From: Flavobacterium sp. N2820
Lineage (GTDB): Bacteria > Bacteroidota > Bacteroidia > Flavobacteriales > Flavobacteriaceae
Length of the DNA stretch: 64,000 nt
NCBI RefSeq assembly: GCF_025947285.1
Contig: NZ_CP110008.1
Location: 1,627,001 to 1,691,000 of the forward strand
Direction: 5' to 3'
Position 1 is the first letter of the stretch. Every line of letters begins with the position of its first letter. The translations under genes and the position numbers were made by a program. Below are positions 32,140-44,800 of this stretch, piece after piece. The notes beneath the pieces are model-generated. The model was not told the DNA's origin. It ran no database searches and saw only the letters and a program-made list of their open reading frames with translations.

Positions 32140-32143
32140 GAAT

Positions 32144-32557
32144 ATGGCATTTAATTCAAGACAATACGAATGGGCGGATTTAACGCTTGTTCTAGGAGGT
32201 AGAGATGTAACGGGAATTCGTGGCATCAAATACTCTGAAAAGGCAGAAAAGGAGGCTTTGTTTGCTAAAGGAAGATTTGCCCACAGCATTCAAACTGGAA
32301 ACATTGCGGTTGAGGGAGAAATCACTTTACTACAATCGGAGTACGAGGCTTTAGTTACAGCGGGTAACGGCTCTATTCTAGGACTTTCTTTAGATGGCGT
32401 TTTTGCTTATGGAAACCCAGCAGTTGGAGACCCACTTATTACCGATAGAGTAATTGGTATTAGCTTCACAGAAGCCGCTAAAGAATTCAAGCAAGGCGAT
32501 AAGTTTATGGAAATCACACTTCCATTCGTTGCCTTATCAGTAAAAAATCAAGCATAA
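32144..32557 (+). CDS. Tail tube protein
   Basis: 137 residues, beta-rich: QYEWADLTLVLGGRDVTGIR, KSxAGDIAVEGE-like TGNIAVEGEITLLQSEYEAL. Directly after the sheath gene, followed by a strong terminator. Confidence 0.78.
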   Translation: MAFNSRQYEWADLTLVLGGRDVTGIRGIKYSEKAEKEALFAKGRFAHSIQTGNIAVEGEITLLQSEYEALVTAGNGSILGLSLDGVFAYGNPAVGDPLITDRVIGISFTEAAKEFKQGDKFMEITLPFVALSVKNQA

Positions 32558-32560
32558 ATT

Positions 32561-32590
32561 AAAAGCCCGCTTTCGGGCGGGCTTTTTATA
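32561..32590 (+). terminator. Terminator after the tail tube gene
   Basis: AAAGCCCGC (32562-32570) pairs with GCGGGCTTT (32577-32585) around TTTCGG, followed by TTTTA. Confidence 0.9.
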
Positions 32591-32604
32591 AAAAACAAAC
32601 ACAA

Positions 32605-32910
32605 ATGAAATCAAACATTGCAACCCCAGAACAAATTAAGGCGTGGAAGGAACAACACCTAGACGTTTACCAAATTGAAATTCCAGAAGACAACAAAGTT
32701 TGTTATCTGAGAAAGCCAACCAGAACCGAATTAAGTTATGGCTCTAAAGTTGGCGCCCAAGACCCTATGAAGTTTAACGAACATATCTTAAATGTTTGTT
32801 GGCTTGCGGGAGACGAGGAAATAAAAACAAATGATAGTTTGTTTTTAGCCGTTTCCACACAACTAGAGGAGGTTTTAGCTTTCAAAAAGGCTCAGCTAAA
32901 AAAGCTTTAG
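32605..32910 (+). CDS. Tail assembly chaperone, short form
   Basis: 101 residues (starts MKSNIATPEQIKAWKEQHLD, ends KKAQLKKL). Lies between tube and tape measure genes, where lambda G/GT and Mu-like chaperones lie. Its last codons contain A AAA AAG (32898-32904), a classic -1 slippery heptamer in the right phase. Expected role: coats the tape measure during tail assembly. Confidence 0.75.
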   Translation: MKSNIATPEQIKAWKEQHLDVYQIEIPEDNKVCYLRKPTRTELSYGSKVGAQDPMKFNEHILNVCWLAGDEEIKTNDSLFLAVSTQLEEVLAFKKAQLKKL

Positions 32911-33062
32911 AGTCGTCAGAAGTTGACGAAAACGAATGGATTCGGATAGCAAACGCCCAATTGAGATATTATTTTCATCTCAATCCTGATGACTTAACAG
33001 ACCAAGAGTGGGCAAGTTATTACAATGAATTAATCTACATAAGAAAATCAGAAAACAAATAA
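32605..33062 (+). CDS. Tail assembly chaperone, -1 frameshift long form
   Basis: After slipping at 32898-32904, reading continues from GCT at 32904 for 52 codons (ALESSEVDENEWIRIANAQL, then YYFHLNPDDLTDQEW) to TAA at 33060-33062, just before the tape measure ATG at 33064. A hairpin TCGTCA (32913-32918) / TGACGA (32924-32929) starts 8 nt after the slippery site, the ideal spacing for a stimulator. Predicted product 152 residues. The -1 segment has no start codon of its own. Equivalent of lambda gpGT. Confidence 0.8.
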
Positions 33063-33063
33063 A

Positions 33064-35019
33064 ATGAGTAGCCAAGCACTAAGTTATATTATTCAAATGA
33101 ATAGCAACTTTGATAAGGTGTATACCTCATTCAATAAGTTTGCTACTGGAGTAAACACTGGTGTAGATAATATTCAAAGAAAATTAAACAGCGTTAGTCT
33201 TAACGCTATGATCCAAAACATTAATTCGGCTGCAGATGGTTTAAACAGTTTAAACGATCCTGGTATGAAGTTGAGTACAAATATGTATGACCTTCAAGCC
33301 ATTACTGGAGTCGCTGGCGATAAGCTAAAAGAAATTGAAGGCTATGCCCGCCAAAACGCCAAAACCTTTGGGGGTGAGGCATCGGCATCGGCAGAATCAT
33401 ATAAGTTAATCCTGTCGCAATTATCTCCTGAAATCGCAAAAATGCCAAAAGCTTTGCAGTCGATGGGTAAAGAGGTATCGATTACATCTAAACTTATGGG
33501 CGGGGATACTGTTGCGGCAACCAACGTTCTTACAACGGCAATGAATCAGTATCAGGTTTCTTTAGAAGACCCAATTAAGGCATCTAAAGAAATGGCACGA
33601 ATGAATAACGTAATGGCAGCCTCAGCCAAAGAGGGCTCTGCGGAACTTCCACAAATTGCACAGGCATTGGAGCAATCAGGATTAGCGGCTAAAACGGCGG
33701 GAGTATCTTTTGAAGAAACAAACGCATTTATTCAGGTACTAGACAAAAACGGAAAAAAAGGAGCTGAAGGCGGAGTTGCATTGCGTAACGTAATGGCAAC
33801 TTTGGCACAAGGTAGATTTTTGCCAAAAGACACCAAAGCCGAGTTAGCAGCTGCAGGAGTAAACATCGATACATTAACGGATAGCTCGCTTTCGCTTTCG
33901 GACAGATTGAAACCTTTAAAGGGTATTATGAACGACCAGGCGTTGGTAACTAAACTTTTCGGCAAAGAAAACAGTAATGCCGCAATAGCTATGATTTCCA
34001 ATACCGATGAGGCAAACCGATTAACTGAGGCAGTTAGCGGAACTAATACTGCATACGAACAGGCTGCAATTATAATGGAAAGCCCATTAGAAAAGAATAA
34101 GCGATTAAAGGCGCAAGTTGATGACTTTAAAATATCGTTGTTTAACGGCACAAATGGTTTAATTGGTTACGCTTCAGAAATTGGAAACGTTGCCAGAGAT
34201 GTTGGTAACCTTATGCCTATTTTATCGGGTGCGGGAACTGTGCTTTCAACTTTAACCAGTGCAACAAAGATGCAAGCGTTATGGTCTGGAATAACAACAA
34301 CCGCAACTTCTATATGGTCGGGTGCTCAAATGGTTTTAAATACAATTATGACCGCTAATCCAATTGGACTTTTAGTGGTAGCAATTGGAGCTCTTGTGGC
34401 TTTAGTTTATTCCGCAATTAAACATTATGACCAGTGGGGGTCTGCGGTTCTTTTCTTACTAGGTCCTTTCGGAATATTGATAAATATTATCATGAGCGTA
34501 AAAGACCATTGGGACTCTATCGTAAACGCCTTTAAATCGGATGGAATTGTTGGAGGTCTTAAACGTATTGGACTTGTGTTATTAGATGCAGTAATGAAAC
34601 CATTGCAACAAATTTTAGAGGTTGTTGCAAAAGTAGATCCAACAGGTCTCGCACAAAAAGGACTTGACAAAATCAAGGCTTTCAGAACGGCTAACAACTT
34701 GGTAACACAAGGAGAAAAAGTAACTAAAGGTAAAGAAGCCGCAGATAAAGCGGTTATAAAAGAGCCAAAAGTACCAGGAGTTAAGGAGACGGAAGGCGGA
34801 GGAACTGGAGGAACTAAAGACGATGAGTCGGTCAAAAAATCTAATCAGGCAGTTGCAACTGGAGGCACAAAACACAATTATATTACAATAACCATCAAAG
34901 AGTTAAACGGTTTAAAAGATGTTGTTGTTAGTGGGAAAGATGCGGCAACAAAAGCGGGAACCGAAGTGGCAGACGAATTATTAAGAGTTATAGCAATGGC
35001 AGGAACAGCCACAGGATAA
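33064..35019 (+). CDS. Tail tape measure protein (TP901 type)
   Basis: 651 residues, helical. The TP901 core region (about 65-370) includes FGGEASASAESYKLILSQL, then VLDKNGKKGAEGGVALRNVM. A hydrophobic stretch (about 425-480, with PIGLLVVAIGALVALVYSAI) fits membrane insertion during DNA injection. Sets tail length; the short protein predicts a fairly short tail. Confidence 0.87.
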   Translation: MSSQALSYIIQMNSNFDKVYTSFNKFATGVNTGVDNIQRKLNSVSLNAMIQNINSAADGLNSLNDPGMKLSTNMYDLQAITGVAGDKLKEIEGYARQNAKTFGGEASASAESYKLILSQLSPEIAKMPKALQSMGKEVSITSKLMGGDTVAATNVLTTAMNQYQVSLEDPIKASKEMARMNNVMAASAKEGSAELPQIAQALEQSGLAAKTAGVSFEETNAFIQVLDKNGKKGAEGGVALRNVMATLAQGRFLPKDTKAELAAAGVNIDTLTDSSLSLSDRLKPLKGIMNDQALVTKLFGKENSNAAIAMISNTDEANRLTEAVSGTNTAYEQAAIIMESPLEKNKRLKAQVDDFKISLFNGTNGLIGYASEIGNVARDVGNLMPILSGAGTVLSTLTSATKMQALWSGITTTATSIWSGAQMVLNTIMTANPIGLLVVAIGALVALVYSAIKHYDQWGSAVLFLLGPFGILINIIMSVKDHWDSIVNAFKSDGIVGGLKRIGLVLLDAVMKPLQQILEVVAKVDPTGLAQKGLDKIKAFRTANNLVTQGEKVTKGKEAADKAVIKEPKVPGVKETEGGGTGGTKDDESVKKSNQAVATGGTKHNYITITIKELNGLKDVVVSGKDAATKAGTEVADELLRVIAMAGTATG

Positions 35020-35020
35020 A

Positions 35021-35689
35021 ATGGGAAACGTATTAGATAGTAGAGACATATTATTTGCAAGTTTAATGGGTAGCCAAGCGGTTGCACTTATTCAACGCTC
35101 GAACTTATTACAAAATGAGTTGTCAAAGCGTGTATTGCCTCCAATACCTTTTTTGCCCCTAAAAAATGAAACCCAAATTGAAAAGGCGTCGGATTTTAGT
35201 TTTGAAAATAATTGGCAAACTAATGATAGTACTCCTGAAGGTTCGCAGTTCTTTCCTATGTCGTTTAGCTTTACTGAAGGCGGGCAAAAATGGTTATTTC
35301 CGTTTGAGCCAATGATTAACATTTCATCAGGGAATAATATCATTAAACGCAACGTAGCCAAACAAGGAGAAAAGCTAATTGGAACTATAAAAGAGCGTTG
35401 GAGCAGAAAGGACTTTGACATACAAGTTACAGGAGTGTTAATGGGAAGTATGTTAAAAGGTTTACCTGAGGATACATTTCCAAGAGAACAAATGGAACGG
35501 TTATTTGAGTTCCTGAAGCATTCAAAAGAGTTCTTTATTTACTGCCACCCTTTGGAGATTTTAGGAATAACAAAAGTAGTTGTGGAAGATTATAGCTTCC
35601 CATTTACAAAAGGAGAAAACGTACAGGCTTATGACCTTAAACTAACAAGTGACTTTGCCTACAATTTATTGATAAAAGAAGAATTTTAA
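35021..35689 (+). CDS. DUF6046 tail protein
   Basis: 222 residues. WLFPFEPMINISSGNNIIKR and VVVEDYSFPFTKGENVQAYD are the pattern I know from DUF6046, a Bacteroidetes phage tail protein found after the tape measure gene. Possibly the counterpart of Mu gpN or an inner baseplate protein. Confidence 0.7.
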   Translation: MGNVLDSRDILFASLMGSQAVALIQRSNLLQNELSKRVLPPIPFLPLKNETQIEKASDFSFENNWQTNDSTPEGSQFFPMSFSFTEGGQKWLFPFEPMINISSGNNIIKRNVAKQGEKLIGTIKERWSRKDFDIQVTGVLMGSMLKGLPEDTFPREQMERLFEFLKHSKEFFIYCHPLEILGITKVVVEDYSFPFTKGENVQAYDLKLTSDFAYNLLIKEEF

Positions 35690-35692
35690 ATT

Positions 35693-36121
35693 ATGCGATT
35701 CGTTCGTTCGCTTTTGATGCTGTTAATGTTGGTGACATTCAGCACGGGATTCGGTTCTACAACTACCGACCTGAAGCAAAATTCAAAAGACAAACATGTT
35801 GTAACGGCTTTTAAAGTGGTTGCTCCTGAGTTTGTAAGTGTTGTATCATTTGAAAGCTCGGTTTTAATTACTGAGAATTATGCAAGTACGGAAAGTACAA
35901 ATTTTGTCACGAAAAAAGTCTTTAACCCAAACATTGTAGCCGTCATTTCAGACGTAGGTTGGAGGAATTATCAGGAGCGAAATAAAGACATTCCATATAA
36001 AGAAAAGCTCATTGATAATTACAATTATAAGAACAAATTGAATAAGGTTGTGCCGGAACATCGAATACGTGATAATCCATTTGACAACTCGCCCACGTTC
36101 TTAATAAAACGGTATTATTAG
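35693..36121 (+). CDS. Hypothetical exported protein
   Basis: 142 residues with signal peptide (about 1-20, MLLMLVTFSTGFG). Mature part basic, no motif. Unusual inside a tail operon; followed by a terminator, so it may be a lysogenic-conversion gene or part of the lysis process. Not recognised. Confidence 0.5.
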   Translation: MRFVRSLLMLLMLVTFSTGFGSTTTDLKQNSKDKHVVTAFKVVAPEFVSVVSFESSVLITENYASTESTNFVTKKVFNPNIVAVISDVGWRNYQERNKDIPYKEKLIDNYNYKNKLNKVVPEHRIRDNPFDNSPTFLIKRYY

Positions 36122-36134
36122 ATAAAAATAAATC

Positions 36135-36166
36135 AAAGCCATTCGTGTTAAATGGATGGCTTTTTT
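36135..36166 (+). terminator. Terminator inside the tail region
   Basis: AAAGCCAT (36135-36142) pairs with ATGGCTTT (36156-36163), followed by TTT. Confidence 0.75.
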
Positions 36167-36169
36167 AAA

Positions 36170-36241
36170 CGGGTGATAGCATTACTGGGATAATGCGTTT
36201 GAAGTAATTCAAAAGATGTGGTTCGATTCCACGCAACCCAC
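36170..36241 (+). ncRNA. Degenerate tRNA-like element
   Basis: 72 nt in tRNA order in a 133-bp gap. Acceptor pairs only 4 of 7 (GGGT 36171-36174 / ACCC 36236-36239). D-arm TAGCATTACTGGGATAATGC has the TA and GG expected. Middle hairpin TTTGAA-GTAA-TTCAAA (36198-36213) is one base short of a normal anticodon arm and holds GTA. T-arm TGTGG-TTCGATT-CCACG (36217-36233) is canonical. Either a decayed tRNA gene or a structural mimic. Confidence 0.55.
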
Positions 36242-36254
36242 AAATTAGAAAACA

Positions 36255-37226
36255 ATGTACAACATCATTTGGGACATAAAATTTAAAACTAATGGAACGA
36301 TTTACTCGCTCCAAACTGTGTCTTCTATTGATATTGAATGCAGCGTTGACAATTTAGCCGATACGGCAGTTATTACACTTCCAGAGGCGGTTATGAATCA
36401 AGTGTTAAATATTGGAAATGAAGTCGCACGAGGTTCGGAGGTTGTAATAAAAGCGGGCTACGATAAAACGCTACAAGCTGAATTTGTAGGCTATGTTCTT
36501 GATGTTGCTTCAAACGACAGCTCTTTAAAAATTATGTGCGAAGATGCGCTCTTCATTTTTAGAAAGGCGGTTAAAGATGTGGAGCTGAAGAATACAAATG
36601 TTTCCAAAATTGCAGACTATTTAGTCAAACAAATAGATCCTTCTTTTAAGTTGGTTTGCGATTATGATATTTCATACGAAAAGTTTGTCATCCATCAGGC
36701 AACCGCTTTTGATGTTTTGAAAAAATTAGCTGAGGAAACAAAAGCTAATATTTATTTCAATACTGAAAAAAAGGAATTGCACATACACGCTCCCTATTTA
36801 GAAAAAGGCGGAGAGGTAATTTATTCGATGCAAAGAAATGTAGAGAAAAGCTCTTTGGAATTCAAAAAGGCACTTGATAGAAAGGTTGAAGTAACCGTTG
36901 AAAGTACAAACGTAGCGGGCAAGATTGAAAGCTATACGGCTGGAACAACTGGAGGCGACAAAGTAACTTTAAAGGTTGGCTCTGTTTCTAAAGTCGATTT
37001 AAAAAAGATAGCCGATGCGGAGCTTATCCGTAGAAGTGCTGATATGTACGAGGGAGCAATCGATACGTGGTTAATTCCATTTGTGCAACCTACATACACA
37101 GCAAAAATAAAAGACGAGGATTATCCTGAAAAGGACGGCAAATATTATGTAGTTGGGGTTAATACTTCAGTTAGTGAAAGCGGAGGAAAACGAACGGTTA
37201 AACTTGGAATTAAAGTAAGCGTATAA
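36255..37226 (+). CDS. Baseplate hub protein, gpD/gpP-like
   Basis: 323 residues. Pattern of the late control D / Mu gpP family: beta-barrels with FVGYVLDVASNDSSLKIMCE, DALFIFRKAV, then TAFDVLKKLAEETKANIYFN. Forms the hub at the tail tip. Followed with one-base overlap by the spike-like gene. Confidence 0.75.
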   Translation: MYNIIWDIKFKTNGTIYSLQTVSSIDIECSVDNLADTAVITLPEAVMNQVLNIGNEVARGSEVVIKAGYDKTLQAEFVGYVLDVASNDSSLKIMCEDALFIFRKAVKDVELKNTNVSKIADYLVKQIDPSFKLVCDYDISYEKFVIHQATAFDVLKKLAEETKANIYFNTEKKELHIHAPYLEKGGEVIYSMQRNVEKSSLEFKKALDRKVEVTVESTNVAGKIESYTAGTTGGDKVTLKVGSVSKVDLKKIADAELIRRSADMYEGAIDTWLIPFVQPTYTAKIKDEDYPEKDGKYYVVGVNTSVSESGGKRTVKLGIKVSV

Positions 37227-37735
37227 TGGATACATCGGCAGAAATAAAAAAGGCATTGCGTGAAGCTTTGGGAATCAATCCCAATTTGGCTATTACTGCA
37301 ACCGTGGTTTCAGTTAATGGAAGCACTTGCTCTATTAAGTTAGCTAGCGAGTTGGTTCTGACGGATGTTCGCCTTTGTGCCACGATAAGCGATGACGCCG
37401 ATATGATGGTTATTAAACCAAAAGTAGGTAGCGAAGTAATTGCAATGAGCCAAACTGGAAAGCTTGACGGCTTGTTTATTGTGAAAGTTGACGCAGTAGA
37501 ATCAATACATTATTCTAAGGCAGATTTTGAATTTGTAATTGACGGAACAACGGGTAAAGTTACTTTGAAGAAATCGGGTGCAAACTTTGGGCAATTGATT
37601 AATGATTTTATTGACGCAATTTCTGGAATGCAAACGATTAATTCAGATATGACAACTGGAGCTTTACAGCCAACAGTTATAGCACAACTAAATGTCATTA
37701 AATCTAAGTTTAATTTGATTTTAAATAACGTTTAA
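37226..37735 (+). CDS. Baseplate spike / gpV-like protein
   Basis: 169 residues. OB-fold-like start (ITATVVSVNGSTCSIKL, KPKVGSEVIAMSQTG) and a C-terminal segment starting GTTGKVTLKKSGANFGQLIN. Fits the gpV/gp45 membrane-piercing spike group by pattern and position. Confidence 0.65.
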   Translation: MDTSAEIKKALREALGINPNLAITATVVSVNGSTCSIKLASELVLTDVRLCATISDDADMMVIKPKVGSEVIAMSQTGKLDGLFIVKVDAVESIHYSKADFEFVIDGTTGKVTLKKSGANFGQLINDFIDAISGMQTINSDMTTGALQPTVIAQLNVIKSKFNLILNNV

Positions 37736-37738
37736 ACG

Positions 37739-38077
37739 ATGAAAGATATAGGGATTCAATTAAAGGATAGCACAAATGCAGTTGAGAACATCGATTTAAA
37801 AGTTGTAATTGTTAAAGGTGTTGACGATAAAATAATAAGTGGTTTGGCTGTTGGTAGAACGCTTGCCCAAAATCAGGCGGTTATCTTAATTGCTAATCCA
37901 GGAGAGTTTCCTTTTAATCCTAAAATTGGGGTAGCCATTGACGAGCTGATATTGGATAACGATTATTTAAGATTCCGACACCGCATTCGTGAACATTTTG
38001 CAAAGGATGGATTAGTAGTTAAAAGAGTTGAATTATCAGAGAATAAACCTTTACAGATAGAGGCTAATTATGAGTAA
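37739..38077 (+). CDS. Baseplate wedge protein, gpW/gp25-like
   Basis: 112 residues with the gp25-like ending LDNDYLRFRHRIREHFAKDG, VKRVEL. Position between spike and J-like genes supports the call. Overlaps the next gene by 8 bp. Confidence 0.65.
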   Translation: MKDIGIQLKDSTNAVENIDLKVVIVKGVDDKIISGLAVGRTLAQNQAVILIANPGEFPFNPKIGVAIDELILDNDYLRFRHRIREHFAKDGLVVKRVELSENKPLQIEANYE

Positions 38078-38351
38078 GGAAGTAACATACAGCGGACAAT
38101 CATTTTATAACAAAGTGGTCGAATGTACGGGCGATATTGAAAACGCCTTCGCTATGTTATTATTAAATAAAAAGACATCAACAACCGAAAGGTTACAAGT
38201 TGGAGAGGTTTTAAAAGTAAGCGAAGTTACCGACTTTGAAGTCGTTGATTTTTTTACTGAGGTAAATAGACCCGCAACATTAAAAGAAAATATAATTGTG
38301 GAGGCAACTGAAAATTATTTGATACCAGGAGAGTTTCCTTTTAGTTTTTAA
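38070..38351 (+). CDS. LysM-like small tail protein
   Basis: 93 residues. VTYSGQSFYNKVVECTGDIE, then TTERLQVGEVLKV resembles the LysM-like gpX class of small tail proteins that sit at the hub. Short C-terminal extension with ENYLIPGEFPFSF. Confidence 0.55.
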   Translation: MSKEVTYSGQSFYNKVVECTGDIENAFAMLLLNKKTSTTERLQVGEVLKVSEVTDFEVVDFFTEVNRPATLKENIIVEATENYLIPGEFPFSF

Positions 38352-38354
38352 ATT

Positions 38355-39206
38355 ATGGCAAGAGATAGAAAAACGATTAAAAAAGAGTTGACAGATACAT
38401 TTATGTCTAACCCCTTAATTATTGCTTTGTATGGTTTAGTAAGTGGTCAAACATTTGAGGAGCAGTTCTCTTTGGTTTCTGTTGAAAATGTTTGGTTTGA
38501 TAATATTTCTTTAGCCATTTATGAGCATGAGCAAATTGTGGCTACAAATGCCCTTAACTCTCGACCGCACAATTTGTCCTGGTACTTAGAAAAATGTAAA
38601 AACTTTCACGATGGTTTGGAGTTGGTTTGGTTAGACGGACAATTTCAATATGACTTAACTTCGGTTCTGGATGCAGAGGAAAGAAAAATAATTGATAGAG
38701 TTGCCGTTTTGGAGTCGTCAAATGGAGAGCTAGTGGTTAAAGTTGCCACAGATAACGCAGGAAATATTGAGCCATTAAGCGCACCGCAGTTAGTTCGATT
38801 TACAAATTATCTGCAGTTGATTAAAGATGCGGGAAATCGCATTAGAATTATCAACCAAGAGGCAGATAAATTGAAACTAACATTGGATGTTTATGTTGAT
38901 GTTTCAATAATTGATTTATCTACAGGACAACTTCTAAATACTGACGATGTTGTTTATCCAGTTAAGGAAGCAATTGATAACTATTTGTCAAATCTTGAAT
39001 TTAATGGGGCATTAGTAAAAGAGTTTTTAAAGAATGAAATTCAAAAAGCCTCAGGAGTTAAACTTCCTCTTATTCAAGGTTTAGAATGGCAGTATGCTAC
39101 TTTCCCATTTGAGACCATTGGTGAGTGGAAAGTTCCAGAAGCGGGTTACTTTAAAATTGAACCAGCAGATTTAACAATTAACTATTTGCCTTATGTTTTG
39201 GATTAG
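38355..39206 (+). CDS. Baseplate J-like protein (Mu gp47-like)
   Basis: 283 residues. Order and the segment LKLTLDVYVDVSIIDLSTG, VVYPVKEAIDNYLSNLEFNG match baseplate J proteins, though shorter than the canonical family. Overlaps the next gene by 14 bp. Confidence 0.6.
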   Translation: MARDRKTIKKELTDTFMSNPLIIALYGLVSGQTFEEQFSLVSVENVWFDNISLAIYEHEQIVATNALNSRPHNLSWYLEKCKNFHDGLELVWLDGQFQYDLTSVLDAEERKIIDRVAVLESSNGELVVKVATDNAGNIEPLSAPQLVRFTNYLQLIKDAGNRIRIINQEADKLKLTLDVYVDVSIIDLSTGQLLNTDDVVYPVKEAIDNYLSNLEFNGALVKEFLKNEIQKASGVKLPLIQGLEWQYATFPFETIGEWKVPEAGYFKIEPADLTINYLPYVLD

Positions 39207-39657
39207 CACCAATTTTAAACAGCAATTTTTAGACCTATCACCCACATTTTTTAGGGGCGAAAGGTTTGAGGCTTTCTTAGGCGTTTTTGCTAAACCATTG
39301 CAAACATTAGCTGATACGACACTTTACCAAATGCAACATGATAGCACCGTTATTTATTTGGAAAAGGTATTGAATGAATATTTTGCAATTTCAACGTATA
39401 ACCCAAATAGCCATATTGCCACAAGGCAGATTTATATTGAAGATGCGCCACAAGCGGTCAAAAATTATATTTATCAACCTGAAGAAACAAACCCTGTTTA
39501 TTTAGGCTTGGTTTACTTGGATAGAGAAATTGCTTTAGATCAATATCATTTTATTGTGAAAATACCAGTTTCAATATCATTTAATGAGGCAAGATTGAGA
39601 GCATTAATTGATTTTTACAAATTGGCGGGAAAAAGATATTTAATAGAAACGTATTAA
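39193..39657 (+). CDS. Baseplate/tail protein, Mu gp48-like position
   Basis: 154 residues. Downstream of the J-like gene and before the fibres, the place of gpI/gp48. ISFNEARLRALIDFYKLAGK suggests the C-terminal part of that group. Sequence call weak; position call good. Confidence 0.55.
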   Translation: MFWISTNFKQQFLDLSPTFFRGERFEAFLGVFAKPLQTLADTTLYQMQHDSTVIYLEKVLNEYFAISTYNPNSHIATRQIYIEDAPQAVKNYIYQPEETNPVYLGLVYLDREIALDQYHFIVKIPVSISFNEARLRALIDFYKLAGKRYLIETY

Positions 39658-39660
39658 CGT

Positions 39661-40461
39661 ATGAAAACAATAAATTTTGATTACACGGGTGGTTTCCCAT
39701 TAGAGCAACCCGTACTAAAGAGAATGCAGTCAGGAACTTTATTAGTTTTAGAGGCATTTGTTAAGCATTTAGGCTGTGCCGATACAGGAAATTTTATTAT
39801 TTCTGGGTGTACTATATCGGGTGCAAATATTACTCCTGGTATCATGTATATTGATGGAGAGCTTTGCCCTTTTGCTGGAGCTGTAGGAACTGCAACAACT
39901 AAAATACAAAAGCAAACTAATACAGTAACCGCTCCATTTGAAAATGGAACAAACCCGCCCGTTTTTATTGAAACGATAGCGGTTGTTAATGCGGCGGGAA
40001 CCGAGCTACAAAACTTTACAAGATTTTATTTTGTTCAAGACGCTAATTATGTTCACACCGACAATAATTTCACGGCTGTACTATTGGCAAAACTGAATAG
40101 CATAGCTTCTGGCGCAGAGGTTAACGTTCAAACCAACTGGAATGAAACCAATCCATTATCTGATGCCTTTTTGGTTGGAAAACCAACGGGCGATTTAATG
40201 ACATATTTGTGGAGAGGTAGAGTTATAATTGGCAATATTGGTTCTGGTACTGAAATTCCTATTTCTTTTCCTGATGTTGGAACCACTCAATACTCTGTTC
40301 TAGGTGTATTAAACGGTAGTAACTCTAATTTAGGACTAGATAACGATGTTACCTATGTTATTGGTCAGCAAACCGCAACCTCTTTCAAAATTTCTTTTGA
40401 TGAGTACGAAAATCACAATCAACAATTAACCTTTAGTTATTTTATTATTCCAAATCCATAG
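39661..40461 (+). CDS. Tail fibre protein
   Basis: 266 residues, beta-rich and Gly/Asn/Thr-rich, N-terminal FDYTGGFPLEQPVLKRMQSG, middle HTDNNFTAVLLAKLNSIASG then AEVNVQTNWNETNP, typical of Bacteroidetes phage fibres. Likely links baseplate to the receptor-binding part. Confidence 0.65.
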   Translation: MKTINFDYTGGFPLEQPVLKRMQSGTLLVLEAFVKHLGCADTGNFIISGCTISGANITPGIMYIDGELCPFAGAVGTATTKIQKQTNTVTAPFENGTNPPVFIETIAVVNAAGTELQNFTRFYFVQDANYVHTDNNFTAVLLAKLNSIASGAEVNVQTNWNETNPLSDAFLVGKPTGDLMTYLWRGRVIIGNIGSGTEIPISFPDVGTTQYSVLGVLNGSNSNLGLDNDVTYVIGQQTATSFKISFDEYENHNQQLTFSYFIIPNP

Positions 40462-40464
40462 ATT

Positions 40465-40950
40465 ATGAAATATATAGCAATAAGCCTCCCAGAAAAGCCA
40501 TTCATTGTATGGTCGTCTATTCCAGATGGTGCGTATGAGAATCCAGAAAGCGAATATTTTGAGCATCCATTAGTTTTAGACGAGGAGGACGTTCCTTCTA
40601 CAGAATTTGGCGTATGCCCTTTAAAAATTGTTGAGGGCGCTTTGGTGTCTAGAACTCCCGCAGAAATGACTGCATTTGAATCGCAGTGGATTCAGTCCGA
40701 ATTTTTGCGCAACAATAAATTAATTATTAATCAGGTAAATGAAGGGAGTTTTACCTACGACACTCAAACATTTCCAATGGATGAACGTTCGCGTATTTTC
40801 TATCAAGCATTTGACAGAGCTAGAGGCACTGTTGGAGTGAAGTGTATGACGACTGCGGGCGCATTGTATACATTGCCTGTTGAAAATATTGATGCCTTTA
40901 TGGATGCGTACTTTTCACAATTAAGAGAACTTTCAAAACCACTTGTATAA
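40465..40950 (+). CDS. Fibre-associated hypothetical protein
   Basis: 161 residues between two fibre genes. Start MKYIAISLPEKPFIVWSSIP; later AFDRARGTVGVKCMTTAGAL. May be a fibre chaperone or a minor fibre component. Confidence 0.5.
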   Translation: MKYIAISLPEKPFIVWSSIPDGAYENPESEYFEHPLVLDEEDVPSTEFGVCPLKIVEGALVSRTPAEMTAFESQWIQSEFLRNNKLIINQVNEGSFTYDTQTFPMDERSRIFYQAFDRARGTVGVKCMTTAGALYTLPVENIDAFMDAYFSQLRELSKPLV

Positions 40951-40952
40951 TT

Positions 40953-41789
40953 ATGCCACTAGGAATAGAAACAAAAGTAGATAGCCCAGATAAGTTAGCA
41001 GCGGTTTCTGGTAAACCAACAGAAAATTATTTGTTTGCCGAGGAGTTTAACCAAATAGTGCAAAAAAGCGACGAGCTAGAAGCAAGTAAAGCGGATTTAG
41101 TGGGGGGTAAAGTTCCTGCAGAACAATTACCTTCTTATGTAGACGATGTTTTAGAGTTTACTGATTTAGCTTCATTTCCAGTTACAGGCGAAACGGGTAA
41201 AATTTATTTGGCTTTAGATACGAATAAGACTTATCGCTGGAGTGGTTCTGCTTATGTTCAGATTGGTGTTGGTAAAAGAACATGGATGGTTGCTTGGACG
41301 GGGGTTTTATATTTTGATGGGAATTCAGGTAATGGTAACTGGTCAGGTTTAAATGCAACAAGTGCAAGTACTTTCGGATTATTAGGCGGAACAAATGGAA
41401 CTATATTTCAGACTCCAGTTGGTACTGGTGGATTACCAAGCCCTCAATCTCCAGCACGTGTTATACCTTATAATTGCAAGATAAAATATTTTCATATTAG
41501 AAACGGAGTATCTCCTTTTTCAGCAGTTAGTCCCGCTAATTTTAGATTAAGATTTCATACACACACACCTAATGGGACAACAACTTTGAACAATCCAGTT
41601 TTACAGGGTGAGTTTGATAGCACAGGATTTAACATGCCTACTAACTATGTTTATCCTTCAAGTTGTTTTACAAATAACAATTTGACTTTACAAGCCGGGG
41701 ACGTAATTACGCCAATAATGAGAGGTTTGCAGGCTTTGACGGCTGGTGCTTTAATTAGTGATTTTTACTTAGAATTTGAAGAGATATGA
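40953..41789 (+). CDS. Tail fibre / receptor-binding protein
   Basis: 278 residues. LPSYVDDVLEFTDLASFPVT, GETGKIYLALDTNKTYRWSG is a fibre shaft motif common in phages of this phylum. The C-terminal half (about 110-278) is beta-rich, Thr/Asn-rich, and the likely host-recognition part. Overlaps the next gene by 4 bp. Confidence 0.7.
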   Translation: MPLGIETKVDSPDKLAAVSGKPTENYLFAEEFNQIVQKSDELEASKADLVGGKVPAEQLPSYVDDVLEFTDLASFPVTGETGKIYLALDTNKTYRWSGSAYVQIGVGKRTWMVAWTGVLYFDGNSGNGNWSGLNATSASTFGLLGGTNGTIFQTPVGTGGLPSPQSPARVIPYNCKIKYFHIRNGVSPFSAVSPANFRLRFHTHTPNGTTTLNNPVLQGEFDSTGFNMPTNYVYPSSCFTNNNLTLQAGDVITPIMRGLQALTAGALISDFYLEFEEI

Positions 41790-42235
41790 TACAATTTTTA
41801 GAAAATAGTAAGCCGATTTTTACATCGGATAGAGAGGACTTAATAGATTTTTATACTTCGAAAGGGTATGAAGTTTGCCCAATTTTGTACAATGGAAGTT
41901 TTTTAAGTCCAATTTGGAATGGAACTGCTTTTGTAGAAGGTGCAACACCCGAAGAAATAGCAGAAGCAAACAATCCAATAGTTCCACAAACAATATCAGC
42001 AATGCGCTTAAAGCTTCAATTGTTTGATATGGGGATTACTGACGAGGATATATTTGAAGATATTGATTCCATACCAGAATTTATGTTTTCAATCACTGAT
42101 AAAGAAAAAGCTAAAATTAAGTATAAAACAGCCACAAGTTTTGAACGAACAAATGGAGAATTAAACTTTGTAGCAACAATGGAAGGTTTAACTCAACAGC
42201 AAGTTGACGAAATTTTTATTAATGGCAATTTATAA
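41786..42235 (+). CDS. Fibre-associated / tail fibre assembly-like protein
   Basis: 149 residues following the receptor-binding gene with an ATGA overlap. The sequence AMRLKLQLFDMGITDEDIFE resembles the C-terminal region of phage tail-fibre assembly proteins. No adjacent invertase, so no G-segment-like switching is seen. Confidence 0.55.
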   Translation: MIQFLENSKPIFTSDREDLIDFYTSKGYEVCPILYNGSFLSPIWNGTAFVEGATPEEIAEANNPIVPQTISAMRLKLQLFDMGITDEDIFEDIDSIPEFMFSITDKEKAKIKYKTATSFERTNGELNFVATMEGLTQQQVDEIFINGNL

Positions 42236-42238
42236 GTT

Positions 42239-42580
42239 ATGGGAATTTTACTCTACATCATCGCAACAATCCTATGGATTTTAATTACCCCAATTAACTG
42301 GGTAATTGTATCGTTTAAACACGGTTTAAGTAATGGTTATTTTACTGAAACGGCAATTGATATTGATAAGTTTGGCAACCGCAATTTTAGAACGTTCTTA
42401 AACGCATCAATGCGGTTAAAAAATGGTTATAAGTTTGGCAACGTCAATGAAACTATTAGTAGCGCATTAGGTAAAAACCAAAGAGATAAAACGCTTAGCT
42501 GGTTTGGAATAGGAATCTGTTTTGTACTGGACAAAATAGAAAAAGACCATTGTGAAAAATCAATAAACGAAAACGTTTAA
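42239..42580 (+). CDS. Hypothetical phage protein with N-terminal membrane helix
   Basis: 113 residues. N-terminal membrane helix (about 3-26) then basic soluble part. Last gene of the fibre operon, ends just before the structured element. Confidence 0.5.
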   Translation: MGILLYIIATILWILITPINWVIVSFKHGLSNGYFTETAIDIDKFGNRNFRTFLNASMRLKNGYKFGNVNETISSALGKNQRDKTLSWFGIGICFVLDKIEKDHCEKSINENV

Positions 42581-42751
42581 ACTTCAGGGAGGAATGAAGT
42601 AAAAAAAAGTCCTCCGACATTTAAAAATCTTTCTCAGGGATTTATTTAAAATTACGACACCAAAGCCGATCGGAGGACAAAAGTCTTCTGGTTGGCTTTT
42701 GTGCGTTATATAAATCCCTGAGAGCAACAAAAGTAATCTAAAATTATAAAT
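42581..42751 (+). promoter_or_regulatory. Structured leader with interleaved stems (pseudoknot-capable)
   Basis: 171 bp without genes but dense in pairing. A hairpin ACTTCA/TGAAGT (42581-42586 / 42595-42600) has GGGAGGAA in its loop. Stem A GTCCTCCGA (42609-42617) pairs with TCGGAGGAC (42670-42678). Stem B TCTCAGGGATTTAT (42632-42645) pairs with 42710-42723, 14 bp. The order A-B-A'-B' makes a pseudoknot. ACAAAAG (42677-42683) / CTTTTGT (42696-42702) forms another hairpin. It precedes the right-end cassette and is a candidate RNA switch or protein-binding leader. Confidence 0.65.
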
Positions 42752-42880
42752 ATGGCAAAACAATTTAACTACAAACAGCAGTACGGTGTTATTGTTATTT
42801 GTGAAACGGAAGAGGAGCAAATTAAGATGTTCGAGGAGCTAAAGGCTAAAGGTTTAAAACTTAAAGTAGTAACAACATGA
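42752..42880 (+). CDS. Small conserved-looking protein (42 aa) of right-end cassette
   Basis: ATG 42752 opens 42 codons (starts MAKQFNYKQQYGVIVICETE, ends KLKVVTT). Beta-alpha-beta pattern (YGVIVIC...EEEQIKMFEEL...LKLKVV). Its stop overlaps the ATPase start as ATGA, so they are coupled. It occupies the place of Mu com but lacks the zinc finger of Com. Confidence 0.65.
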   Translation: MAKQFNYKQQYGVIVICETEEEQIKMFEELKAKGLKLKVVTT

Positions 42881-43572
42881 TAGTAAAAATTGAGAACAAA
42901 ACTAAAGACTTTGAAAGCTATAGAGCTCAAAGGGTAAAATCTTTATTTAATGCAGAGGACGGCTCACAATTTACACAAGATTTTAATATTGAAATTGACG
43001 ACATGGATTGGGGCATTGGTTTAATTGTTGGGGCGAGTGGTTCTGGTAAGACTTCCATTGGTAAGCAATTCTTTGGAGAGGATAAAATTTGCAATCTTTA
43101 TGCGGGTTGGGAACATGACAAACCAATTGTAGACTGTATTTTGCCTGATGGAGATTTCAACACAGCTACAGGAGCCTTGGCGGCTGTAGGTCTTGGAGAT
43201 GTTCCAAGTTGGTTGCGACCTTTTCACGCATTATCAAATGGTCAACAATTTAGAGCGGGTTTAGCTCGGTTAGTTACTGAAGCACCCGACGAGGTTGTTG
43301 TTGATGAGTTTACCAGTGTAGTGGACAGACAAATTGCCAAAATTGGTGCGCTAGCCTTTGCAAAGAACTGGAGGCGAAATAAAGGAAAAAAAGTAGTGCT
43401 ATTATCTTGCCACTATGATATTATCGAATGGTTACAACCAGACTGGGTATATGATGTAAATACCAAAGTATTAAAAAAAAAATTGAACTCGGCAACCGAC
43501 CAGAGATTAAAATCGACATTTGGAAGGTCAACGGAACTTACTGGAAGTATTTTAAAGAGCATTACTATTTAG
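42877..43572 (+). CDS. ABC-type ATPase domain of a split ATPase-GNAT protein
   Basis: 231 residues in this frame. Walker A GASGSGKT (52-59), signature-like LSNGQQFRAGLARL (119-132), Walker B VVVDEFTS (140-147), His179 switch in LLSCHYD. This is the ABC part of the group known as ABC-type ATPase fused to acetyltransferase (COG2401, from memory). Codons 199-203 are TTA AAA AAA AAA TTG on a run of ten A's (43473-43482); beyond it this frame runs 30 residues of unlikely sequence to TAG, while the -1 frame continues into the GNAT domain. Confidence 0.85.
   Translation: MIVKIENKTKDFESYRAQRVKSLFNAEDGSQFTQDFNIEIDDMDWGIGLIVGASGSGKTSIGKQFFGEDKICNLYAGWEHDKPIVDCILPDGDFNTATGALAAVGLGDVPSWLRPFHALSNGQQFRAGLARLVTEAPDEVVVDEFTSVVDRQIAKIGALAFAKNWRRNKGKKVVLLSCHYDIIEWLQPDWVYDVNTKVLKKKLNSATDQRLKSTFGRSTELTGSILKSITI
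43473..43482 (+). other. A10 slippery tract between ATPase and GNAT
   Basis: Ten consecutive A's. It fits either -1 ribosomal or polymerase slippage, or an on/off length-variable tract. Nine or twelve A's would join the two domains in one frame. Confidence 0.8.
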
Positions 43573-44000
43573 ACCTACCACATCCGCCTGCAGCCGAATA
43601 CTTTGTTGGAGTTGTAAACGGGGAACTTGTGGCACACGTTGCTGTTTGTCCTTTGTTTACGGCTAAGGCTTACAGGGCAACTCGTTTAGTTGTTATGCCC
43701 GAGTGGCAAGGTGCTGGAGTTGGAACCGCATTTTTAAATGAGGTTATGCAATACCATTTAGAAGGTAACGGCAGATGCGGGCATAAGTTCCCGACGTTCT
43801 TTCACACTAGCCACCCGCAATTAGCATCTTATTTAAGAAGTGCAAAAGTTTGGATACAAACAGGCGCAATGCTATATGGCTCTAATAAAACAAGAAGCAA
43901 CGCTAGTATCGTTAAGACTGGGAAAAAGGGAACTATTACAGGCTGTGGATATGGCGGACATTTTAGAGCTATTCAAAGTTTTAAATATATAGGAAAATGA
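43482..44000 (+). CDS. Mom-like GNAT acetyltransferase domain, -1 frame of ATPase
   Basis: From ATT 43482 the -1 frame reads 172 residues: IELGNRPEIKIDIWKVNGTY, then YFVGVVNGELVAHVAV and LVVMPEWQGAGVGTAFLNEV, which holds the acetyl-CoA loop of GNAT enzymes. There is no ATG; only a GTG at 43629 inside the fold, which would drop strands, so a separate full-length gene is unlikely. Joined to the ATPase by -1 slippage or a one-base change in the A-run, the product would be 374 residues. By position at the right end and by the YYLDLP...TRLVV pattern it may correspond to Mu Mom, which modifies adenines (inference). Confidence 0.75.
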   Translation: MELGNRPEIKIDIWKVNGTYWKYFKEHYYLDLPHPPAAEYFVGVVNGELVAHVAVCPLFTAKAYRATRLVVMPEWQGAGVGTAFLNEVMQYHLEGNGRCGHKFPTFFHTSHPQLASYLRSAKVWIQTGAMLYGSNKTRSNASIVKTGKKGTITGCGYGGHFRAIQSFKYIGK

Positions 44001-44665
44001 AAAAATTAAGAGTTTTTATAAGTGGTCAAAAGTATTTTGGAGAGCAAGTGTTTAGCTTGTGCCAAAGCCTTGACTTTATCGAAATTGTAGGAGTTTGCGC
44101 TCCGCTCGATGATAAGTACATCGGTAAAACCGCAAGAAAGTTTAATATTCCAGTTGTGCCTGCGGGCGCATTAAACGCCGATACAATGCCCAATAATGTA
44201 GATATTGGTATTACGGCGCACTCATTTGATTATATCGGCGTACGCACAAGATATAAGCCTAATATTGGTTGGATAGGTTATCACCCGAGTTTGTTACCAC
44301 GTCATCGTGGGCGTTCGTCTATTGAATGGGCTATCAAAATGCGGGATGCAATTACAGGCGGAACAGTGTTTTGGTTAAATGCTGGAATTGATCGAGGTGA
44401 TATTGCATATCAGGAGATTTGCTTCATAGATCCGAAAATGTACGCAATGGACACAAAGAAGGCAGCAAAGTTGTTGTGGGAGCATGAGCTTCAGGACTTA
44501 GGATTAAAGTTGATTCGACAGGCGCTGATTGATATAAGTAACGGAGTTATTATAAAGAAGCCACAGCGTAAGGAGTTTAGCACCTTTGAGCCAAGCACTG
44601 ACGTCAAGGATATATTTAAGCCAGACTTATTGATGTTGGAGCAATATGCATCTGATAGCAAATAA
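43997..44665 (+). CDS. Formyltransferase-fold protein
   Basis: 222 residues of the formyltransferase (Fmt/PurN-like) fold: HPSLLPRHRGRSSIEWAI (96-113), then TGGTVFWLNAGIDRGDI (120-136), with His96 and Asp132 in the positions of the catalytic His and Asp. The usual catalytic Asn two residues before His is Gly94 (GYH instead of NxH). Start overlaps the GNAT stop (ATGA). It probably transfers a one-carbon or related group to a small amine or a DNA-base precursor made by the GNAT enzyme (inference). No C-terminal tRNA-binding domain, so not Met-tRNA formyltransferase. Confidence 0.82.
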   Translation: MKKLRVFISGQKYFGEQVFSLCQSLDFIEIVGVCAPLDDKYIGKTARKFNIPVVPAGALNADTMPNNVDIGITAHSFDYIGVRTRYKPNIGWIGYHPSLLPRHRGRSSIEWAIKMRDAITGGTVFWLNAGIDRGDIAYQEICFIDPKMYAMDTKKAAKLLWEHELQDLGLKLIRQALIDISNGVIIKKPQRKEFSTFEPSTDVKDIFKPDLLMLEQYASDSK

Positions 44666-44666
44666 T

Positions 44667-44690
44667 AAAAGCCCTATTAAGGGCTTTTTA
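44667..44690 (+). terminator. Terminator of the right-end cassette
   Basis: AAAAGCCCTT (44667-44676) / AAGGGCTTTT (44679-44688) with T-run. Last phage transcription signal before the right end. Confidence 0.88.
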
Positions 44691-44719
44691 AATAGTGTTT
44701 AAACATTGATTAAATGTTA

Positions 44720-44727
44720 TATATTTG
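44720..44727 (+). promoter_or_regulatory. Outward-facing -7 element TATATTTG
   Basis: Perfect TAnnTTTG between the last phage terminator and the right end. It would read out of the phage, antisense to the host ompA-like gene. No proper -33 box; may be chance. Confidence 0.25.
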
Positions 44728-44736
44728 CTCTGAAAG

Positions 44737-44774
44737 TGCACAATTCATTTTTTATTTATGCACAATTCATTTTT
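44737..44774 (-). repeat. Right inverted terminal repeat with tandem 22-bp site
   Basis: TGCACAATTCATTTTT occurs twice, 44737-44752 and 44759-44774, spaced 22 bp. The segment 44747-44773 is the inverted partner of the left end 8793-8819 (24/27). Expected transposase binding sites R1/R2. Confidence 0.75.
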
Positions 44775-44800
44775 GCGATTATATAAAAAAAAATATTTTT

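Follow-up and report, generated by a model that had tools for sequence, protein, structure and literature searches.

A Mu-like prophage of Flavobacterium ends on its right in a small gene cassette; what does this cassette do for the phage that carries it? The prophage, with its transposase, DNA transposition protein, and head and tail genes, lies in the 64,000-nucleotide stretch of the Flavobacterium sp. N2820 genome analysed here (the window), and an initial annotation had proposed that its last genes make a DNA base modification. The 42-aa ORF, ABC ATPase, GNAT domain and formyltransferase are present from 5' to 3' in the order then given, and both ATGA overlaps (42877–42880 and 43997–44000) are confirmed (Table 1). 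The ATPase-GNAT fusion that had been described is not one ORF, however: the 0-frame ATPase stops at 43572, and the GNAT domain lies in the −1 frame relative to it. The cassette is probably a phage DNA-modification system, housed in an exchangeable right-end slot of Mu-like Bacteroidota phages and operating through a programmed −1 shift and acyl transfer by an ATPase-GNAT protein. A second copy in the same genome is identical over 31547–44783 and diverges from window base 44784; because it is cut by the contig end, this copy is not counted as independent evidence and gives no left boundary for the prophage.

Table 1. Features of the cassette and its surroundings, in window positions
Feature	Position	Strand	Remarks
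Promoter-like element of small RNA	42728..42760	-	TTTTG (42756-42760), 20 nt, TACTTTTG (42728-42735)
Candidate small RNA, transcribed away from cassette	42601..42723	-	5' end (~42723-42725) inferred
42-aa ORF	42752..42880	+	phrog_28816
ABC ATPase ORF, 0 frame, 231 aa	42877..43572	+	N-terminal half of phrog_11143
GNAT acetyltransferase domain, −1 frame	43455..44000	+	C-terminal half of phrog_11143
A10 run with in-frame slippery heptamer A_AAA_AAA (43473-43479)	43473..43482	+	
Formyltransferase-fold ORF, 222 aa	43997..44665	+	closest: 10-formyl-THF dehydrogenase hydrolase domain
Terminator-like hairpin and T run, closes operon	44667..44689	+	read directly from sequence
Prophage right end	44737..44783	.	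two copies of TGCACAATTCATTTT

The ATPase contains Walker A, an LSNGQ signature, a DE Walker B and an H-loop, and the 42-aa module corresponds to the C-terminal end of ParB-like proteins in non-Mu relatives. Among the nearest relatives (the best 80 of 269), this module is found in all 78 loci with at least 200 nt upstream, and the formyltransferase follows in 54 of the 56 distinct loci that extend 700 nt or more downstream, counts that are not independent events because the loci are nearest relatives and related by descent. The other two of these 56 loci have no formyltransferase, and none was seen in five Planctomycetota ABC-GNAT loci. Eighteen of the 28 records with a formyltransferase match are also in the ATPase match list, while the other ten match over 49–66% of the query and include methionyl-tRNA formyltransferases. 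Recurrent co-occurrence of the genes, whose absence the initial annotation had named among the grounds for refuting its proposal, was thus found, and the proposal survives on that point.

The two halves of the ATPase-GNAT protein are joined across a conserved motif. An in-frame A_AAA_AAA is kept at 42 of 42 distinct split junctions, a set without L054, whose contig stops before the GNAT domain, and at three of three further split junctions. Between the slip site and the GNAT core, no ATG, GTG or TTG in the GNAT frame was found in any of the 42 split loci, and a possible GNAT-frame start codon upstream of the slip site is present in eight. Judged by median dN/dS, which is 0.067 for the ATPase (60 pairs, 31 sequences) and 0.089 for GNAT (80 pairs, 41 sequences), both halves are under purifying selection. 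The A run comprises 8–11 A in 33 of the 42 loci and only 7 A in nine, and in this A7 subgroup a covarying hairpin begins about 5 nt downstream of the slip site. All of its 72 cells are paired, double-changed cells number 7 against 2.5 in shuffled alignments (0 of 500 shuffles), and its alifold z score is −5.6 (0 of 200 column shuffles); two other measures, pairs changed on both sides (51/500) and further pair types (82/500), fall within the shuffles. In the test by groups, which covered 41 of the 42 loci (L032 left out), the A9, A10 and A8/A11 groups gave no supported consensus structure downstream, nor did alifold of all 42 downstream stretches jointly. Outside the A7 subgroup, single members fold well over 45 nt (L055 and L056 at −11.7, L008 at −13.9 kcal/mol), with no shared structure.

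We read the split as a programmed −1 shift that would yield both the ATPase alone and an ATPase-GNAT protein; in the window, the GNAT domain would be reached by a shift within 43473–43482. Decay of a dead gene, or a sequencing error, is very improbable. Homopolymer runs are error-prone, and two relatives that stand near the split loci (L021, from which the GNAT fold was taken, and L039) read through both halves in a single frame; in L032 and L036 the ATPase has early stops. Against this, 42 distinct junctions are split alike, and the frame break does not look like decay because the slip motif is universal among them, purifying selection acts on both frames, and the slip site and GNAT core have no start codon between them; the covarying hairpin argues the same way. 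A stronger competitor is transcriptional slippage, by which the frame would change on the A run during RNA synthesis and not on the ribosome. Long A runs are known slippage sites in the portions of the literature consulted (PMC5009743, PMC4066793), and the 33 loci with 8–11 A are those without a supported consensus structure, whereas the nine loci with only 7 A place their hairpin at the spacing typical of ribosomal shifts. Slippage is a real possibility. Downstream of the window's own A10 run no structure gained support (z −0.52; A10 group z −1.25), so that the shift there may be weak or may come from transcriptional slippage. Two further observations were set aside. The 0-frame stop that is conserved behind the slip site had been considered as a trace of selection for the short product; in-frame fusions, too, have a stop there in the corresponding frame, so it follows from the protein sequence and is uninformative. 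Both slip codons are AAA in 42 of 42 loci, the AAA share of lysine codons elsewhere being 67.5%, and the naive product of 10^-15 was dropped as a probability since it ignores the relatedness of the loci.

Immediately upstream of the cassette, the stretch 42581–42751 folds very stably (MFE −62 kcal/mol, z −8.9), as expected of the structured leader that the initial annotation had proposed. The fold stands, but its assignment to the cassette does not. The U-tract and promoter-like element lie on the opposite strand, and the same element occurs in cassette-less prophages beside methyltransferase or thymidylate-synthase-like genes; the idea of a cassette-specific riboregulator or Com-like target was therefore rejected. 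The stretch appears to encode a small RNA with a pseudoknot, divergent from the cassette on the opposite strand: a long two-part hairpin with apical AGAAGAC-N-GTCCTCC, a U-tract end, and a GGAGGAC tail that pairs back to the apex. Bacteroidota promoters have the consensus TTTG/TAnnTTTG, and the −33 part of the element found here lies across the opening codons of the 42-aa ORF. Searches of Rfam 15 at gathering score returned only a tRNA elsewhere in the whole window and no match in 12 related loci, and the seven matches to 42560–42800 are all far below their families' gathering scores.

The bare apical motif is unspecific, matching 33 of 298 genomes against about 50 for a reversed control pattern, so that the presence of the RNA rests on inspection of individual loci. 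From 45 places matching the motif, 30 loci were fetched, one per genome with three further genomes left out, and 22 were judged genuine by us from fold, promoter and tail. TAnnTTTG stands at the expected place in 20 of these 22 RNAs (the −33 part joins it in 11) and in none of the eight loci judged spurious; a separate set of 25 RNA sequences was selected by the promoter-like element and hence forms no independent test of it. The tally of outer-stem pairs in that set likewise arises by construction and is not evidence of covariation. The pseudoknot helix was tested separately, and a model of this helix only (R1) found 13 of the 35 loci given, missing L067, whose leader looks like a family member. 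These pseudoknotted RNAs of phages may constitute a new family, one that would mark, and perhaps govern, a swappable right-end "modification island" of Bacteroidota transposable phages.

The 22 genuine RNA loci also reveal what else occupies this slot. Three carry the cassette; among the 19 without it, nine hold a D12 N6-adenine DNA methyltransferase, eight a thymidylate-synthase-like gene, and two are unreadable, these assignments being based on Pfam for 15 of the 17 genes and on visible similarity for two incomplete genes, in L148 and L167. In L026, L028 and L037 a C5-cytosine DNA methylase, and in L062 a thymidylate-synthase-like gene, lies between RNA and cassette. The isolated Flavobacterium phage fF4 carries the same small RNA, with a DNA methyltransferase at the slot as described in the part of its report consulted (PMC7761591). 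The mom-like position claimed by the initial annotation is borne out by these neighbors, which support the slot as the counterpart of the Mu com-mom position. With an adenine methyltransferase or a thymidylate-synthase-like gene in 17 of the 19 cassette-less RNA loci, the predicted DNA-modification role of the cassette is well supported by location, although slot neighbors provide guilt by location only. The likeness to Mom does not extend to the GNAT domain, which is outside the Mom family: it has no match to the Mom profile PF25680, on which Mu Mom itself scores 253 bits, hhalign of A5 against Mom gave 0.2% probability, and its only Pfam matches are to Acetyltransf_1/7/10 with E up to 1.

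The formyltransferase fold had been named correctly: the protein scores 59.9 bits on PF00551 (cut-off 26.1), and Foldseek aligns it to 2cfi with E 5.5e-17 (TM 0.75 by query length). Its best solved relatives are hydrolase domains of 10-formyl-THF dehydrogenase (FDH), and sequence and fold likeness extends also to Fmt and ArnA. Amine formyltransferases use an Asn two residues before the catalytic His. In the present group this Asn is replaced in 65 of 65 ORFs, as in FDH, while His96, Ser98 and Asp132 are invariant in 35 rows. The triad matches the His-Ser-Asp of the FDH hydrolase, whose acceptor is a phosphopantetheine thiol according to the part of PMC6802093 consulted. By its residues, the protein would belong to an FDH-hydrolase-like subgroup with a His-Ser-Asp triad and the Asn replaced.

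In the mechanism that we favor, the soluble ABC ATPase would dimerize on DNA, and the C-terminal GNAT domain would acylate an exocyclic amine of a base, a CoA thioester being the donor, with the formyltransferase-fold protein, using 10-formyl-THF, supplying or finishing the acyl group. The programmed −1 shift at A_AAA_AAA would produce a mixture of ATPase alone and ATPase-GNAT, from which mixed dimers with one catalytic arm could form. As to the chemistry, our own tentative guess is that the formyltransferase makes formyl-CoA, as in the proposal for HypX, and that GNAT uses it to N-formylate the base. That the whole would amount to an unprecedented DNA modification, with formyl-CoA as donor, an ATPase-coupled GNAT formylating a base amine, a −1 shift setting the ratio and a pseudoknotted RNA marking the island, is on the unlikely side.

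Methionyl-tRNA and sugar formyltransferases formylate amines, and the order of events may be reversed, with GNAT adding an aminoacyl-type group to the base and the formyltransferase then formylating its free amine. The resemblance to the amine-formylating Fmt and ArnA in sequence and fold agrees with this order, and loci without a formyltransferase match fit a decorating rather than a supplying step. It is nevertheless unlikely, given the universal replacement of the amine-formyltransferase Asn and the thiol acceptor of FDH (PMC6802093, in part). A yet different role for the enzyme, auxiliary purine or translation metabolism as PurN or Fmt, is suggested by PHROG and source names and is hardly credible: the scores are far below the NCBIfam equivalog cut-offs (fmt 55.6 against 201.5; PurN 28.8 against 150.1), the catalytic Asn is lost, and the gene is tied to the ATPase-GNAT. 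The substrate, too, could be other than DNA. Modification of a host protein such as RNA polymerase or a restriction enzyme, for host takeover or anti-restriction, has a precedent in the phage GNAT Rac, which acetylates host RNA polymerase (PMC7824862, in the text available), and RimI is the best distant NCBIfam match of the GNAT domain, far below cut-off. We regard a host-protein target as improbable, since DNA-modification genes occupy the slot in relatives, packaging genes lie next to the cassette in Gordonia phage AnClar and, as we read the ORFs, in L006 and L077, and the published prediction for GNAT with ABC ATPase is base modification (PMC7824862, same text).

The preferred reading, a DNA-modification system, makes the bare prediction of a GNAT and ABC ATPase base modifier testable and gives it a genetic address, the methyltransferase slot of sister phages. 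The conserved frameshift offers a clear stoichiometry hypothesis for an ATP-driven modification enzyme, and the presence of a formyltransferase hints at one-carbon chemistry of folate acting on DNA. Modification cassettes of transposable phages shape the resistance of these phages to restriction, and scans with the flanking RNA as a marker should uncover others.

Several known systems share parts of this design. With Mu com-mom, the cassette has in common a right-end position after the tail genes, a small ORF before a GNAT-fold modifier and a presumed protection of phage DNA. Mom produces N6-carbamoylmethyl-adenine in DNA, whereas the cassette GNAT has no Mom match and is accompanied by an ATPase and a formyltransferase; the 42-aa protein has no zinc-finger match and resembles the end of ParB-like proteins. 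Phage fF4 and its prophage relatives are likewise transposable, and they too have the small RNA and, near the right end, a gene for DNA modification; in fF4 a methyltransferase takes the place that the cassette occupies here. The slip site recalls dnaX-type −1 frameshifting in its A-run heptamer, in the short spacer and hairpin of the A7 subgroup, and in two products sharing an ATPase. In dnaX the shift shortens the protein; here it would lengthen it, and most members have no supported hairpin. The formyltransferase shares with the FDH hydrolase domain its fold, triad and replaced Asn (IYHPSLLPRHRG versus GYHPSLLPRHRG), and the HypX N-terminal domain is grouped with that hydrolase as closest known, a likeness taken by citation, the comparison itself having been run on FDH. 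To our knowledge, formyl-CoA formation by HypX has been proposed but not yet shown. Unlike FDH and HypX, the phage protein is a stand-alone 222-aa enzyme without further domains. One further system qualifies the remark of the initial annotation that it knew of none described with this exact set: acyl base modification by GNAT and ABC ATPase was already predicted (Iyer 2013, according to the part of PMC7824862 consulted), with Tenacibaculum phage pT24, which the window ATPase matches, as an example. The words "formyl" and "ParB" are absent from the available text of PMC7824862, and a search of titles and opening lines of abstracts, with few subscription papers among them, returned no formyltransferase or frameshift in such systems. 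The cassette, like the system outlined in that source, is found in phages and joins an ABC ATPase and a GNAT domain, through the putative shift, as one functional protein; to these it adds a formyltransferase and a ParB-tail module, a division into two frames with a conserved slip site, and a place in the modification slot of transposable phages.

The prophage is of the transposable type, with a transposase and a DNA transposition protein at its left followed by head, sheath, tape measure and baseplate genes, further tail-region ORFs and then the cassette. All four cassette elements that the initial annotation had named, a 42-aa protein, an ATPase, a GNAT domain and a formyltransferase, are present at the positions it assigned, and the genes overlap by ATGA at either joint. 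The same genome holds the right-hand 13.2 kb of the prophage once more (locus L017, G000:C1:3042385-3055624), cut by the contig end; this second copy is identical over window 31547-44783 and diverges at 44784, which fixes the right end of the prophage. It may stem from a recent transposition or reflect the edge of the assembly and, since it ends at the contig end, offers no independent evidence for the reading frame. Among the tail genes, ARAGORN called a tRNA at 36154-36241 whose anticodon has two bases; the call is probably false since the Rfam tRNA model has no match there.

Coordinates of the cassette, its slip site and the candidate small RNA (L numbers denote loci of relatives)
Feature	Window position	Strand	Also in
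Candidate small RNA with promoter-like element	42601-42760	minus	L104, L016, L030, L033, L085, L004, phage fF4 (L175)
42-aa ORF	42752-42880		
ABC ATPase ORF	42877-43572		
A10 run with slip site	43473-43482		
Formyltransferase ORF	43997-44665		

The ATPase ORF encodes 231 aa, and the GNAT domain lies in another frame, −1 relative to the ATPase. ATPase and GNAT correspond to the N-terminal and C-terminal half, respectively, of a single phage family, phrog_11143, which many relatives encode in one ORF (361-409 aa among the 37 listed). Relatives were collected from annotated phages, IMG/VR (the best 80 of 269 ATPase matches and 13 formyltransferase matches) and further genomes, yielding 81 distinct junction sequences: 42 split alike and 39 in frame. 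All 42 split junctions carry A_AAA_AAA in the ATPase frame within runs of 7 to 11 A, and three further split loci, L119 (Flavobacterium palustre), L120 and L138 (another family), agree. The 0-frame product, measured from the match start, is 227-231 residues long in 40 of the 42 and is broken by an earlier stop in L032 and L036. Among in-frame junctions the heptamer occurs in L021 and L039 only, both near split ones by similarity. These two loci retain the A run while ATPase and GNAT share a frame; slippage on it would, as in dnaX, yield a shorter protein, so that both forms might still arise.

Judging by median dN/dS, purifying selection acts on both the ATPase frame (0.067, 60 pairs) and the GNAT frame (0.089, 80 pairs). 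Separate initiation of the GNAT is unlikely in most split loci because in all 42 its frame is free of ATG, GTG and TTG from the slip site to the GNAT core; upstream of the slip site, 8 of 42 have such a possible start codon. We infer that a programmed −1 shift occurs. Nine split loci have seven-A runs only, followed by a hairpin whose consensus start is 5 nt past the heptamer (4 nt when L049 and L059 are folded singly), a consensus spacing within the 5-9 nt quoted for heptameric shift sites in an excerpt of PMC5009743. All 72 pair cells of this hairpin are standard and three pairs are altered on both sides, giving 7 double-changed cells versus 2.5 in shuffles (0 of 500), and every slid version did worse. 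Two other measures fell within shuffles (51 and 82 of 500). Its alifold energy is −11.64 versus −1.89 ± 1.74 for column shuffles, none of 200 being as good. No supported common structure was found in the three other run-length groups (z −1.4, −1.25 and none), the groups together with the A7 loci covering 41 of the 42 split loci (L032 was left out), nor downstream of the window junction by itself (z −0.52). Since the hairpin is supported in the A7 loci and the other groups show no supported common structure, this split appears to be maintained in two ways, by a short run plus hairpin or by a long run on its own, and the latter may act by transcriptional slippage.

The gene set is conserved. At a match limit of E 1e-3, which takes in a shorter, distant subfamily, the formyltransferase gene is present in 54 of the 56 distinct loci whose sequence extends 700 nt or more beyond the GNAT; the two without it, L006 and L077, run into ORFs read as terminase genes. 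Wherever at least 200 nt of upstream sequence is available (78 loci), the 42-aa module lies ahead of the ATPase. In about 20 non-Mu relatives it makes up the C-terminus of a larger protein (22 of 79 ORFs are extended, with L006 and L089 among them apparently spurious), and ten extended proteins scanned gave ParB_N above cut-off in five, below it in L086 and no match in four. Distant ABC-GNAT fusions (L121-L125, 32-37% identity) occur in Planctomycetota genomes with no formyltransferase match.

The formyltransferase has the superfamily fold in a structure model (pLDDT 87.9), and its closest relative by sequence (1s3i, E 2e-16) and by structure (2cfi, E 5.5e-17, TM 0.75) is the hydrolase domain of 10-formyl-THF dehydrogenase. 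Two residues before the catalytic His, all 65 formyltransferase ORFs have Gly, Ile or Val; 10-formyl-THF dehydrogenase has Ile at this position, and PurN, Fmt and ArnA have Asn. Because GNAT enzymes use CoA thioesters, the favoured but unproven chemistry of the cassette is a relay in which the formyltransferase would make formyl-CoA for use by the GNAT. His96, Ser98 and Asp132 are invariant in a 35-row alignment; according to an excerpt of PMC6802093, His, Ser and Asp form the triad moving formyl to phosphopantetheine in the dehydrogenase's hydrolase domain, and a related HypX domain is proposed, without direct proof, to make formyl-CoA.

Many Mu-like Bacteroidota loci contain the folded element that precedes the cassette, its stem sequences differing widely among them. 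The candidate RNA starts after TTTTG-N20-TACTTTTG, folds into two stacked stems carrying AGAAGAC-N-GTCCTCC at the apex, and closes with GGAGGAC and a U run. A pseudoknot helix joins tail and apex, with 98% of 198 cells paired and 18 double-changed cells versus 6.2 in shuffles, and folding z-scores of six members range from −4.6 to −9.4. Rfam contained no matching family. Across 298 genomes of the genus, the bare apical motif had matches in 33 and a reversed control in about 50, and genuine loci were therefore decided by inspection (22 of 30 fetched, one per genome). Given these 22 loci versus an ATPase found in 4 of 299 genomes of the genus, the small RNA belongs to the phage slot, the counterpart of Mu com-mom, and not to the cassette. 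Hypervariable stems, a conserved pseudoknot, its own promoter-like element and a U-tract define a candidate new phage small RNA family marking this right-end modification slot.

Three of the 22 genuine loci hold the cassette. Beside the promoter-like element of the small RNA in the other 19 lies a D12 N6-adenine DNA methyltransferase (nine loci) or a thymidylate-synthase-like protein (eight), Pfam having been run on 15 of these 17 genes; of the remaining two, L153 stops short and L163 is disrupted. In the isolated phage fF4 the small RNA is followed by a DNA methyltransferase, and its authors (PMC7761591) place DNA-modification genes among the last ORFs of most related prophages and liken the position to that of mom. 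These slot contents are the strongest argument for the putative role of the cassette in modifying DNA. Between small RNA and cassette, L026, L028 and L037 carry a C5-cytosine DNA methylase, and thus two modification systems in one slot, while L062 carries a thymidylate-synthase-like gene. The thymidylate-synthase-like slot proteins of L154, L156, L157, L158, L171, L172 and L062 are short (211-214 aa) and may be hydroxymethylases for base modification, not dTMP makers.

An acyl base modifier composed of a GNAT and an ABC ATPase is a published prediction (PMC7824862, in excerpt). Four aspects appear new within the literature searched, part of it in excerpt: (i) the tight partnership of the ATPase-GNAT with a formyltransferase; (ii) the putative conserved frameshift in two designs; (iii) the ParB-tail nature of the 42-aa protein, and (iv) the candidate small RNA marking the slot.
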